Below the pieces are notes generated by a model, which was not told the origin of the DNA, did not search any database, and worked only from the letters and a program-made list of their open reading frames with translations. This document shows, one piece after another, positions 40,077-43,675 of a DNA stretch of 64,000 nucleotides. Source of the stretch: Actinopolymorpha singaporensis (lineage in GTDB: Bacteria; Actinomycetota; Actinomycetes; Propionibacteriales; Actinopolymorphaceae); NCBI RefSeq assembly GCF_900104745.1, contig NZ_LT629732.1:6311981-6375980 (forward strand). Direction: 5' to 3'. Numbering within the stretch: the first letter of the stretch is position 1; the number at the start of each line of letters is the position of its first letter. Both the position numbers and the translations under genes were made by a program.

Positions 40077-41189
40077 ATGCAGTGGTACGACGGCCCCACC
40101 AGGCCCGACCGTCAGCCACCGCCTGTCAGCGACCGTCCTCCACCGGCCGCGGGATCCCGATCCGGACGCCGGCCGTACGCGGACGCCTCCCCCTACGCCG
40201 GCTCCCGCGACCGTGATCCCCGCGGCCGGCAGGCGTCCGGCGGGGACCCGTACGCACGTCCGGCGTCCGGGGAAGGGACGGACGCCGACGTCGCCGAGGT
40301 CGGCTCACCCCGCCGTCGCCTCCCGCGCTGGGTGCGGTTCAGCCTGGCCGTCGCAACCGCCCTCGTGGTCGGCTGGCTGGCGCTGACCCGGCTCACCGCG
40401 CCCGACGCGGACGTCCGGGCGGCCCGACCGCGGTTCCCCGACAACTTCACCACCCAGGTCGACGTCACGGTCCGGAGCCGGGTCGGTGACCCGCAGGTCG
40501 TCCTGCCGCCGCGGCCGCCGGCGTTGCCCGGCCTGGAGTTCGCCGGCACGAACGGCGAGGCCGGCCCGACGGTCCAGGGACGCATGGAGTGGCGGTCGAT
40601 CGAGGTGCCGGGGCACGGGCAGCGTGGCTTCTCGCTGTACTGGAAGGTGCGGGACTGCGCAGACGCCCTGGCCGCCGGCGAGCGCGAGGTCGCCGTCCCG
40701 CTGAGGGTGGTCGGTGCCCGCGGCGCGGGCAGCACGCTCCGGCTGTCCGTCGGCGTGCAGCGCGACCTGCTGCCCTCGGTCTGTACGACCGACCAGGACG
40801 CCGGCCGACCCCGACTGGTGGCGGCCGGCCCGGTCAGGGGCGCGGGCCGCGACACGTTGCAGGTGCTCGTCACCGTGCAGAACGTCGGCGGCCGGCCGCT
40901 GACCTACCGCGACACCGTGGTCACCGCCGACTCCTCGCTGCGAGTGCTGTCCCTCAGCGGCGACTCGGCCCGCCCGGACGCCGTGGGACAGGACCAACCG
41001 AGACTGGTGCCGGTGGGCGAGGAGCGAACCATCCCGCTGGTGTTCCACGCCAACGACTGCCGGGTCCCGGTGGACAGCGCCGCCGCGGTGACGATGCGCT
41101 TCGCCGGGCAGCCGGGCCGGCCGGTGGAGCTGCCGGTCAGGCTGGCCGACAACTGGGAGAACTTCCTCGGCGTCTGTGCCGGCCCCTGA
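40077..41189 (+). CDS. Single-pass membrane protein of unknown function
   Basis: The 370-residue protein has an 80-residue disordered N-terminus rich in Pro, Arg, Asp and Tyr. One membrane helix (FSLAVATALVVGWLAL, residues about 88-103) follows, then a 260-residue extracytoplasmic region that looks all-beta. Cys in VRDCADAL, SVCTTD, NDCRVP and GVCAGP could make disulphides. I recognise no family. GAGGAGG lies before ATG 40077. It ends six bases from the convergent pseudo-AAA gene. Confidence 0.75.
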   Translation: MQWYDGPTRPDRQPPPVSDRPPPAAGSRSGRRPYADASPYAGSRDRDPRGRQASGGDPYARPASGEGTDADVAEVGSPRRRLPRWVRFSLAVATALVVGWLALTRLTAPDADVRAARPRFPDNFTTQVDVTVRSRVGDPQVVLPPRPPALPGLEFAGTNGEAGPTVQGRMEWRSIEVPGHGQRGFSLYWKVRDCADALAAGEREVAVPLRVVGARGAGSTLRLSVGVQRDLLPSVCTTDQDAGRPRLVAAGPVRGAGRDTLQVLVTVQNVGGRPLTYRDTVVTADSSLRVLSLSGDSARPDAVGQDQPRLVPVGEERTIPLVFHANDCRVPVDSAAAVTMRFAGQPGRPVELPVRLADNWENFLGVCAGP

Positions 41190-41195
41190 GGACCC

Positions 41196-43472
41196 TCAGC
41201 GCCCGACCTCGGCGTCGGCGGGCTCGGCGTCGGCGGGCTCGGCGTCGGCGGGCTCGGCGTCGGCGGGCTCGGCGTCGGCCGGCTCGGCGTCGGCGGTCGG
41301 CAGGTCGACGACATCGACCAACGGCGAGTTCGCCCGGTTCGTCCGCCGGCGGGCGGCGGCGACCGCGAGGTCGGCCAGCCGGGTGGCCAGTCCGGCGTTG
41401 CGCCTCTCCTCGACCGGCTGTGCGTTCCGGACGGACTCCCCTGGCTCCGTCCCGGCAGCCGAGCCCGAACGCGACGTCACCGACGCCCGGGTCGCGGCCA
41501 GCAGGTCGCCGGCCGCCAGGAGCGCGTCGGGTGTCGTGGTCGCCCCGCGCCGGTCGAGCGCGCGGCCGAACAGCACGGCGAAGTCGCCGGCCGCGAACTC
41601 GCGAGTACGCACCACCCGCCACCAGGCCGCCAGGGACGGGCTGGCGTGGACCAGCCGGCGGTAGCCGTCCGGGCCGCCGAACGCGACGAGCTGCACGCGA
41701 GCGCCGTGTGCGCTGATCAGCCGGTGCAGTTCCTGCGCCAGCGGCCGGCCGATCCGCTCGTAACTCACCAGCCGGTCGAGTCCGTCGATGGCGATCAGGC
41801 GTTCGCCGTCGCAGCCCTCCACCCGGTCCCGGAGCTGGGCGACCGCGCTGTCGGCGTCCAGCGGGGCGAACTGCTCGTGGTGGAGCCACACCGCGGTTCC
41901 GTCGAAGCCGCGCAGGGTCATCAGCCGGGCGAGCACGTCGACCGCGAGGTCGGCGCCCACGTCCGGCGGCCCGGTCACCAGCAGCCGGAGGTCCTGGGCG
42001 GGCATGTCCACGAGTTCTCGGAGCACCGCGACCAGAGCCGGCTGCCCCACGATCCGGTCGATCATCGCGGTCGCCTGGGCCAGCGCCGAGGCCCGGGCGC
42101 ACACCGGTCCGCCCGCGGGTGCGGGGAGGGATCGGGCGGACCGGTCCGACGCGTCGTCCGGCCCCTCGTTCGGGCCCTCGTTCGGCCCCTCGTTCGGCCC
42201 CGTCGCCTCACCGGGCCCCTCGCTGCCGGACACCTCAGCCGGAACGAGCGCCCCCGCCGCGTTCCGGCGTACCTCACCGTTGCTGTGCCCGACCGGCGGG
42301 AAAACGTCTTCCGTGGCGAGCCAGGCGGGCGCTGCCACCACGCCGGTGAGTGGATGGCGCACCCGCCGGACCCGGAACAGCCGGCGTACGTCGTCCTGGA
42401 ACTCCCCCACCGGAACCAGACACGACTCGGGCGTCACCGCGTCGCCGGGCAGACCCTGGACCACGCCGGTCAGCCGGACCGCGAGGTCCAGCCAGGTCCT
42501 GGCCACGCCGAACTCCCCGGCCACCAGCGCCCGGGCCAGCCAGGACCGCACCTGAGCCCGCCACGCGTCGGCGTCCCACGTCCGCACGTCCTCCGGAAGC
42601 CGGGCGCCCACCTGCGCGTACAGGTCAGCGCGTACGCCGACGGCGAGCTCGGGCGGCACGGTGGTGAGCCCGGCCTGCACCAGCAGGCGGGAGAACGCGG
42701 TGCAGACGTCGTCCCCGCCCGGTACGGCGGCGATGAGAAGCTCGTGCGCCGCGCACCAGCCGTCGACGATCCAGCTCAGGTAGCCGACGTTGCCGGTGAG
42801 TTCGGGCAGGGCGGCCACGAGGTCGTCCCCGGCCGAGTCCGCCCAGCGTTCCCGCAGCCGGGCCCATCCCGACGGCAGACTCGGCGCGGAGAGGGTGGCC
42901 TCCACCAGGTCGTGGTCGGCCGCGGCGTGTTCGTACAGCCTCAGCAGGCCCTGCCGCCGGGTCTCCAGGGACTCGATCCCCTCCAGCGCCCGCAGGATCT
43001 CCACGGTCAGCTCCCACGCCAGCCGGCGAAGGCCGCGGTCGCCGCCGGCTGCCCGGAACAGTTCACCGCCCGGCGGACGCCACGAAGCTGCGGGGGCCAC
43101 CCACCCGGCGTACGGGTCACCCGGCGCGTCCCCGCCCCGACCGGCTGCCGTGCCACCGGCGTGGTGCGACCTCACCAGGTCGTGCTCCAGCCGCAGCCAG
43201 GACCCGGAGCGGACCGCGACGTCACCGCAGAGGAAGGCGGTGATGCCGAGCACGTCGGCGACCACGGCCGGCACCGGCGTACGGAGCTGCGGATGCTCGT
43301 CGAGGACCAGCAGCGCCGCGCGCGGGTCCTCGGCCAGCGCGTCCACGCGTTCGGCCAGCTCCGCGACCAGGCCGTCCGGGACCTGCCACCTGCCCCACGA
43401 GTACAGGTCGAACACCGACTCCTCGCGGAACATCGCCTCGAGGGCGCCGTGTGCCCGGGCGTTGGTCTGCAC
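41196..43472 (-). CDS. Uncharacterised protein with a degenerate AAA+ core and tandem repeats
   Basis: The 758-residue protein has a long helical N-terminal half of unknown fold. A linker with GPNE repeats follows, then a region resembling the AAA+ core of CbxX/EccA proteins (IVGQPALVAVLRELV, LLVTGPPDVGADLAVDVL near 499, LIAIDGLDRL near 557). The Walker A Lys/Thr are replaced (GPPDVGAD instead of GPPGTGKT) and the Walker B Glu is Gly, so ATP hydrolysis is unlikely. The tail is five or six DAEPA units. GTG 43472 has GGAGGA six bases upstream. An in-frame start at 43592 would add 40 residues without a ribosome binding site. Function unknown. Confidence 0.7.
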   Translation of the reverse strand: MQTNARAHGALEAMFREESVFDLYSWGRWQVPDGLVAELAERVDALAEDPRAALLVLDEHPQLRTPVPAVVADVLGITAFLCGDVAVRSGSWLRLEHDLVRSHHAGGTAAGRGGDAPGDPYAGWVAPAASWRPPGGELFRAAGGDRGLRRLAWELTVEILRALEGIESLETRRQGLLRLYEHAAADHDLVEATLSAPSLPSGWARLRERWADSAGDDLVAALPELTGNVGYLSWIVDGWCAAHELLIAAVPGGDDVCTAFSRLLVQAGLTTVPPELAVGVRADLYAQVGARLPEDVRTWDADAWRAQVRSWLARALVAGEFGVARTWLDLAVRLTGVVQGLPGDAVTPESCLVPVGEFQDDVRRLFRVRRVRHPLTGVVAAPAWLATEDVFPPVGHSNGEVRRNAAGALVPAEVSGSEGPGEATGPNEGPNEGPNEGPDDASDRSARSLPAPAGGPVCARASALAQATAMIDRIVGQPALVAVLRELVDMPAQDLRLLVTGPPDVGADLAVDVLARLMTLRGFDGTAVWLHHEQFAPLDADSAVAQLRDRVEGCDGERLIAIDGLDRLVSYERIGRPLAQELHRLISAHGARVQLVAFGGPDGYRRLVHASPSLAAWWRVVRTREFAAGDFAVLFGRALDRRGATTTPDALLAAGDLLAATRASVTSRSGSAAGTEPGESVRNAQPVEERRNAGLATRLADLAVAAARRRTNRANSPLVDVVDLPTADAEPADAEPADAEPADAEPADAEPADAEVGR
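41211..41300. repeat. 15-base coding tandem repeat
   Basis: Six consecutive 15-base units (five near-identical, GGCGTCGGCGGGCTC) encode the DAEPA repeats at the C-terminus of the minus-strand pseudo-AAA gene. Copy number could vary between strains by slippage. Confidence 0.85.
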
Positions 43473-43675
43473 TGGTGGTCCTCCGGCTTCCGGGCACGCC
43501 AGGTGGCCGGGCGTCGGGCGAACCTCGGCCGGGACAGGGACCGAGACCGCGGAAAGGAACAAGATCGCGCGCAGCCTAGCGGAGTCGATCACGAACTCCC
43601 ACTGTGTGATCGCGTGCCGAACACCTCGACCGAAGGGCCTTTGCAGGACACCGCCGCGGGGCAGGTTTCCTCCTG

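Follow-up and report, generated by a model that had tools for sequence, protein, structure and literature searches.

The described proteins closest to the product of gene 41196-43472 are the AAA+ ATPases of the SpoVK-CbbX-EccA clade. According to a source on this clade (PMC10659427), these proteins have a bihelical hairpin upstream of Walker A, the apex of which is said to bind adenine, and the dipeptide GY at sensor 1. The characterised members serve a dedicated target or context; in the clade, the N-terminal domain is believed to bring in a single dedicated client for the ATPase to remodel (PMC10659427).

Three members of the clade are useful for comparison. The window protein (the window being the whole stretch of 64,000 nucleotides of the soil actinobacterium Actinopolymorpha singaporensis that we analysed) resembles the Rubisco activase CbbX (CfxQ/CbxX) in its AAA+ core; CbbX is its best fold match, and there is a profile match to the CbxX domains of its relatives. 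In contrast to CbbX, it lacks the Walker A Lys/Thr, the Walker B Glu, the GY, the arginine finger, the sensor-2 Arg and the full hairpin. It also has an extra helical N-terminal domain and lies outside a cbb operon, the CbbX of the same genome being encoded elsewhere beside Rubisco. EccA of type VII secretion belongs to the same AAA+ clade and has the same layout, an N-terminal domain followed by AAA, according to PMC10659427, but the window gene is outside a secretion locus, its motor residues are lost, and no EccA was found over the cut-off in the eight genomes of its family. The same source places SpoVK, the dedicated chaperone of MurG, in this clade and proposes that its N-domain recruits one client (PMC10659427). 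In sporulating Firmicutes SpoVK works as an active ATPase, whereas the window protein is devoid of the catalytic residues. Neither the NCBIfam equivalog model of CbbX nor the NCBIfam model of EccA matched the window protein. Inactive AAA+ domains are known inside larger machines, e.g., clamp loaders or Sir3. In the literature searched, mainly open-access papers without their supplements, we found no protein of the CbxX/EccA clade described as motorless or as carrying a pseudo-AAA.

Our main reading, to which we give a probability of about 0.6, is that the gene product is a non-catalytic protein, used for binding or as a scaffold, that was made by the loss of the motor from a dedicated AAA+ chaperone. 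Nearly all of the defining catalytic features are absent; hence, judging from its residues, the window protein should not be classified with the ATPases of the SpoVK-CbbX-EccA clade.

The gene and its product

The host genome is a single contig of 6.4 Mb. The gene was found in all eight genomes of Actinopolymorphaceae (f1; the other families are named by group code), which represent three genera, and its reading frame was open in all of them. The original prediction of a protein with lost Walker motifs and two repeat arrays describes a real ORF: it has a ribosome-binding site and a GTG start at 43472, in a region that is also kept in relatives, it is found in 8/8 genomes, and its dN/dS is well below 1 in both domains. 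Searches of the window protein against Pfam and NCBIfam produced only sub-threshold AAA matches, and a sequence search of the PDB produced no match.

Table 1. Positions in the window of gene 41196-43472, its parts and its convergent neighbour.
Feature	Coordinates	Strand	Basis
Whole gene, 758 aa: N-half, linker, pseudo-AAA, DAEPA tail	41196..43472	-	
Ribosome-binding site GGAGG, upstream of the GTG start (43470-43472)	43480..43484	-	sequence
Helical N-terminal domain, residues 3-377, common to motor-bearing CbxX-type proteins	42342..43466	-	
Low-constraint linker between N-half and pseudo-AAA	42102..42341	-	dN/dS 0.69-0.94 vs L059-L061
Pseudo-AAA domain, residues 458-727, SpoVK-CbbX-EccA type	41292..42101	-	
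Degenerate Walker A, GPPDVGAD, without Lys and without Ser/Thr	41949..41972	-	
Asp-Gly of the degenerate Walker B (IAIDGLD), Asp kept, Glu replaced by Gly	41781..41786	-	
Low-confidence insert in the pseudo-AAA before the sensor-2 helix	41406..41468	-	model pLDDT <50, alignment
12-bp tandem array, 4.0 copies, 91% match, GPNE repeats in the linker	42154..42201	-	
15-bp tandem array, 5.9 copies, 97% match, DAEPA tail	41208..41296	-	
Convergent neighbour, 370 aa, one hydrophobic segment (about residues 86-104), four Cys	40077..41189	+	

The N-terminal half had been described as large, unknown and helical. Its model was indeed all-helical and had no significant match in the PDB; the model is poor (pLDDT 52), and helical character is all that it tells. 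Fold searches with this poor model gave no match in Foldseek at E < 0.001 and a best Z of 4.9 in VIA. Compared with the TPR N-terminal domain of EccA, the N-half thus showed helices in a poor model and no significant fold match.

Both repeat arrays reported earlier, including the DAEPA repeats of the C-terminus, are present. Neither is kept in the relatives L060 and L061, and they are therefore species-level expansions. The linker has 84 to 659 residues in f1 (n = 8) vs 8 to 319 (median 44) in the family f20 (n = 35); since these ranges overlap, the longer linker of f1 is only a tendency. According to the alignment, the insert of the pseudo-AAA is present in the closest relatives only.

Relatives, domain order and the probable loss of the motor

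Among 117 genomes, 28 had a match to the window protein. The N-half and the AAA part were both matched in the eight f1 genomes, and other members of the order were matched by the N-half only, with 23-31% identity. A 22-row profile of the N-domain had matches in 11 of 394 genomes of the class. The protein search of genome contigs returned 28 loci, of which only L031-L033 were taken into the analysis; the others matched just the tail end (query residues from 664 on) and were set aside. Outside f1 the N-half is fused to ATPase domains of the CbxX/CfxQ type. Of these domains, 21 of 21 tested match the models of SpoVK, CbbX and EccA, and the solved structures nearest to the CbxX-type domains of the relatives are CbbX and EccA1. 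The N-domain of the window protein aligns and groups with those of these proteins (36-row alignment, tree). The analysis defines an actinobacterial family of N-domain/CbxX proteins that is so far without a name.

The f20 proteins L102-L105 and L107 carry the degenerate domain of the window protein after their N-domain, and one or two CbxX domains follow it. Judging from the grouping of L033 with f20 rows, f20 appears to include Streptomonospora. The profile of the f1 pseudo-AAA matched the degenerate domains of these five proteins with E-values of 1e-36 to 1e-51, vs 6e-8 or weaker for the other CbxX domains tested. A 13-row pseudo-AAA profile had strong matches (E < 1e-60) in 4 of 394 genomes of the class, and in 22 of 150 f20 genomes, at 36 loci. 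Several f20 genomes, among them G457, have two to four pseudo-AAA paralogues, so the pseudo-AAA family expanded in those genomes.

We read the domain order in the 36 f20 loci, in 23 homologues free of the pseudo-AAA and in the eight f1 proteins. A motor was called intact when a CbxX match carried G-x4-[GA]-K-[TS] together with a Walker B of the type VL[FL][ILV]DE. The f20 proteins share with the window protein a homologous N-domain and a homologous pseudo-AAA in the same order, but differ in that the pseudo-AAA is followed by one or two CbxX domains, of which one or both are intact. The intact motor was in the same ORF in 35 of the 36 loci. In the remaining one (L243, G581:C40:12000-22500) the part with the N-domain and the pseudo-AAA stops, and the motor part is encoded in a different frame, in the adjacent ORF; it is the sole such f20 locus, and the split is either a gene fission or a sequencing error. 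One f20 locus at a contig edge, L260, has no N-domain, its pseudo-AAA alone being joined to the motor. All 23 pseudo-free homologues had at least one intact motor. An intact motor of the CbxX/EccA type was thus found in 59 of 59 homologous loci outside f1 (adjacent in one), 36 of which carry the pseudo-AAA before the motor, vs none of the eight f1 proteins, which have the N-domain and the pseudo-AAA only.

Both trees speak for a common origin of the pair formed by N-domain and pseudo-AAA. All 13 pseudo-AAA tested formed one clade in the AAA tree of 62 domains (support 100/100), and in the N-domain tree of 36 proteins f1 grouped with exactly the five pseudo-AAA-bearing f20 proteins that the tree includes (95/91). 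The position of L107 depends on the tree: the N-domains place it as the sister of f1 (85/73), the AAA domains with f20 (97/86). The 30 later f20 loci and L108 are in neither tree. From these patterns, the motor was probably lost in f1, whose relatives have an intact motor after the pseudo-AAA. The ancestor would have had the order N-domain, pseudo-AAA, motor, and the motor would have been lost once, i.e., in one event on the unrooted tree. The history may also be the reverse, with motors fused onto an N-domain/pseudo-AAA ancestor in f20.

Searched against the eight f1 genomes, the CbxX profile had one strong CbxX-type match in each, and no motor of the N-domain/CbxX family was found elsewhere in them. 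This match is CbbX beside Rubisco in the genome of the window (G000) and an EccA-like protein in G007; in the six others (G001-G006) it is taken as CbbX from its size and score, the neighbours having been read in G000 only and the protein in G006. The window protein might form part of a hetero-oligomer as a non-catalytic subunit, with the pseudo-AAA packed against CbbX, an EccA-like protein or another AAA+ motor that would supply the ATPase activity in trans, and the pseudo-AAA is in cis or beside a motor in 36/36 f20 loci, so it evolved next to one. We regard such a subunit as unlikely, given that the eight genomes do not seem to share one CbxX-type motor (CbbX having been read in two and inferred in five more, and the eighth having an EccA-like protein), that CbbX has its own substrate, Rubisco, and that the residues meeting the site of a neighbour decayed too, the arginine finger and the sensor-2 Arg each being kept in one of eight proteins.

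In the triple-AAA relatives L033, L106, L109 and L110 the middle CbxX domain passes the motif test and the first and third fail it, in 4/4 proteins. Hence, AAA tiers may have become inert more than once in the N-domain/CbxX family.

Decay of the catalytic residues

At the catalytic columns the window protein has A and D (Walker A), D-G (Walker B), GG (sensor 1), S at the Asn upstream of the arginine finger, W at the finger itself and G at the sensor-2 Arg. The catalytic Lys and Thr of Walker A, the Glu of Walker B, the Tyr of sensor 1, the arginine finger and the sensor-2 Arg are all gone, and the absence of the Walker A Lys/Thr and Walker B Glu noticed earlier holds residue by residue.

The eight f1 domains together retain the P-loop Lys once, the Ser/Thr twice, the finger Arg once and the sensor-2 Arg once; the Walker B Glu, the sensor-1 Tyr and the Asn are found in none, and the hairpin region is short in 8/8. 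The spacing between the VG motif and Walker A is 26 residues in 8/8 f1 domains vs 40 in 36/36 intact CbxX domains. The intact domains have the K, T, D, E, G-Y, N, arginine finger and sensor-2 R in 36/36 cases, although they were picked by their Walker A and Walker B motifs and those columns are therefore preselected. The f20 pseudo-AAA (n = 36) differ from the window domain: most keep the P-loop Lys (30) and the Asn (30) and all keep the sensor-2 Arg (36), whereas the finger Arg is found in 13, the Ser/Thr in one, the Walker B Glu in one and the sensor-1 Tyr in none, with a short hairpin region in 36/36.

The residues kept in f20 speak for a nucleotide-binding switch, i.e., a domain whose shape changes on binding ATP or ADP that it does not hydrolyse. 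The family member L064 even retains a canonical GPPGTGKS, so nucleotide binding may persist in some members. As an account of the window protein the switch is quite improbable, since this protein has none of the Lys, Ser/Thr, Asn, arginine finger and sensor-2 Arg, and its hairpin region is short.

More tentatively, at somewhat less than even odds, we suggest a route in two steps from a dedicated AAA+ chaperone to a motorless scaffold, with both stages visible in extant relatives: the front AAA lost hydrolysis and kept its nucleotide-holding residues, after which the f1 family dropped the motor and the last of these residues decayed, the domain still being under strong selection. The residue pattern is what would be left by such a decay. 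As f1 is one lineage, the loss of the motor and the loss of the last nucleotide residues coincide only once. If the route is correct, the inert AAA would have a binding job of its own that outlived the motor, and the residual nucleotide site would serve only the communication with the motor.

Ancestry and fold of the pseudo-AAA

Single-profile matches of the pseudo-AAA were weak and pointed to AAA_22 and RFC. In a profile-profile comparison (hhalign), the pseudo-AAA profile matched CbxX with an E-value of 1.5e-21 over 244 columns, and of 4.3e-16 over 240 columns without f20, vs 7.1e-7 over 164 columns for RuvB and 3e-7 over 53 columns for DnaX, two controls with shallower profiles (Neff about 2 vs 3 to 3.9). 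The eight f1 domains alone matched 21 CbxX domains with an E-value of 2.7e-13.

Structure prediction, suggested as a check of the original prediction, gave an AAA+ fold (pLDDT 74.9, pTM 0.62). CbbX came first in both Foldseek (E 1.4e-8) and VIA (Z 17.8), although the alignment behind the model held three CbxX domains of L033 and may favour a CbbX-like outcome. The fit to CbbX (3syk/3syl) had an rmsd of 4.7 over 244 residues, and RFC and RuvB came next, with Z of about 15 to 16 and a lower rmsd. In the AAA tree the stem of the pseudo-AAA is very long (3.57 changes per column), which makes its place inside the clade unsure.

We conclude that the pseudo-AAA most likely descends from the CbxX/EccA clade; the resemblance proposed at the outset is upheld by the profile comparison, the fold model and the motors found in all 59 homologous loci outside f1. 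It is very doubtful that the domain came from another AAA+ group (clamp-loader or RuvB-like) and was inserted after the N-domain, as the weak matches to AAA_22 and RFC and the long stem would allow, because CbxX is ahead of RuvB and DnaX by about 14 orders of magnitude (about 9 without f20) and over the whole domain, with the caveat of the shallower controls.

Selection

We compared the window gene with its close relatives L059, L060 and L061 using Nei-Gojobori counts. In this order, the dN/dS values were 0.19, 0.18 and 0.16 for the pseudo-AAA, 0.26, 0.34 and 0.29 for the N-half, and 0.83, 0.94 and 0.69 for the linker. Against the more distant L062 and L064 they were 0.19 and 0.30 for the pseudo-AAA and 0.23 and 0.40 for the N-half. 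The N-domain and the degenerate domain are under purifying selection, and the constraint is strongest in the latter, whose catalytic residues are lost. Its dN/dS of 0.12-0.34 in 15/15 pairs, together with a frame open in 8/8 genomes of three genera, contradicts the hardly credible view of the gene as a decaying remnant without function, in spite of the missing motor and catalytic residues, the expanding repeats and the drifting linker.

A probable scaffold made from a chaperone

The comparison of residues supports the loss of catalysis, and the pseudo-AAA is conserved; hence, a binding scaffold, as the original prediction had it, is the best reading. The N-domain would recruit a dedicated client, as is thought for the N-domains of this clade. 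The pseudo-AAA, on its flexible linker, would act without ATP as a module for self-assembly (oligomerisation) or docking. The protein would then bind and hold its client, or present it, instead of remodelling it.

In a protein that retains just an inert domain and a presumed client-binding half, nature has set binding apart from the work of a motor, and the motor-bearing relatives of the window protein show the likely preceding step. A general question becomes testable here: what the role of an inert AAA tier is, and why inert tiers adjacent to a motor keep residues that contact the nucleotide.

Neighbours and genomic context

The convergent neighbour 40077-41189 had been described as a protein with one helix, which agrees with its single hydrophobic segment. 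Its co-occurrence with gene 41196-43472 is true but of limited value. It adjoins the gene in 8/8 f1 genomes; yet the whole block around the two genes is syntenic, and the profile of the neighbour had no match below an E-value of 0.01 to the tested genes of f2, f3, f4 and f20. Adjacency therefore proves little, and the neighbour is a candidate partner by position only. Beyond f1, the search of 117 genomes found a single weak match, with an internal stop.

Homologues in other families have different neighbours: MsrB, chlorite dismutase, pantoate ligase, PH-domain proteins, RsfS and IMPDH, as well as roadblock/DUF742 genes and an ABC exporter (read from sequence). We saw no conserved operon around them with our home-made gene caller, which scores codon positions and missed some genes, e.g., of L108 and L128.

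The suggested link to secretion loci found no support. EccA was above the cut-off in none of the eight f1 genomes, no annotated neighbour is a T7SS gene, and two genomes with a family gene, G008 and G039, have no EccB. EccB itself was found in 8/8 f1 genomes and in 12 of the 14 genomes searched, so its association is uninformative; in the genome of the window it is at another location than the gene. The EccA-like CbxX protein of G007 is about 12 kb from a second EccB.

We also considered an anti-phage role and rejected it: PADLOC gave no match to the window protein, and relatives match the IetA and TRIP13 models in their AAA part. Nor was there a match in 72,556 plasmid records that would indicate spread by plasmids. 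Elsewhere in the genome of the window, at about 793-798 kb of G000:C1 (L127:4179-9948), lies a cbb cluster with the Rubisco large subunit, CbbX, a phosphoribulokinase-like gene and transketolase-like genes, all named by reading their sequences.
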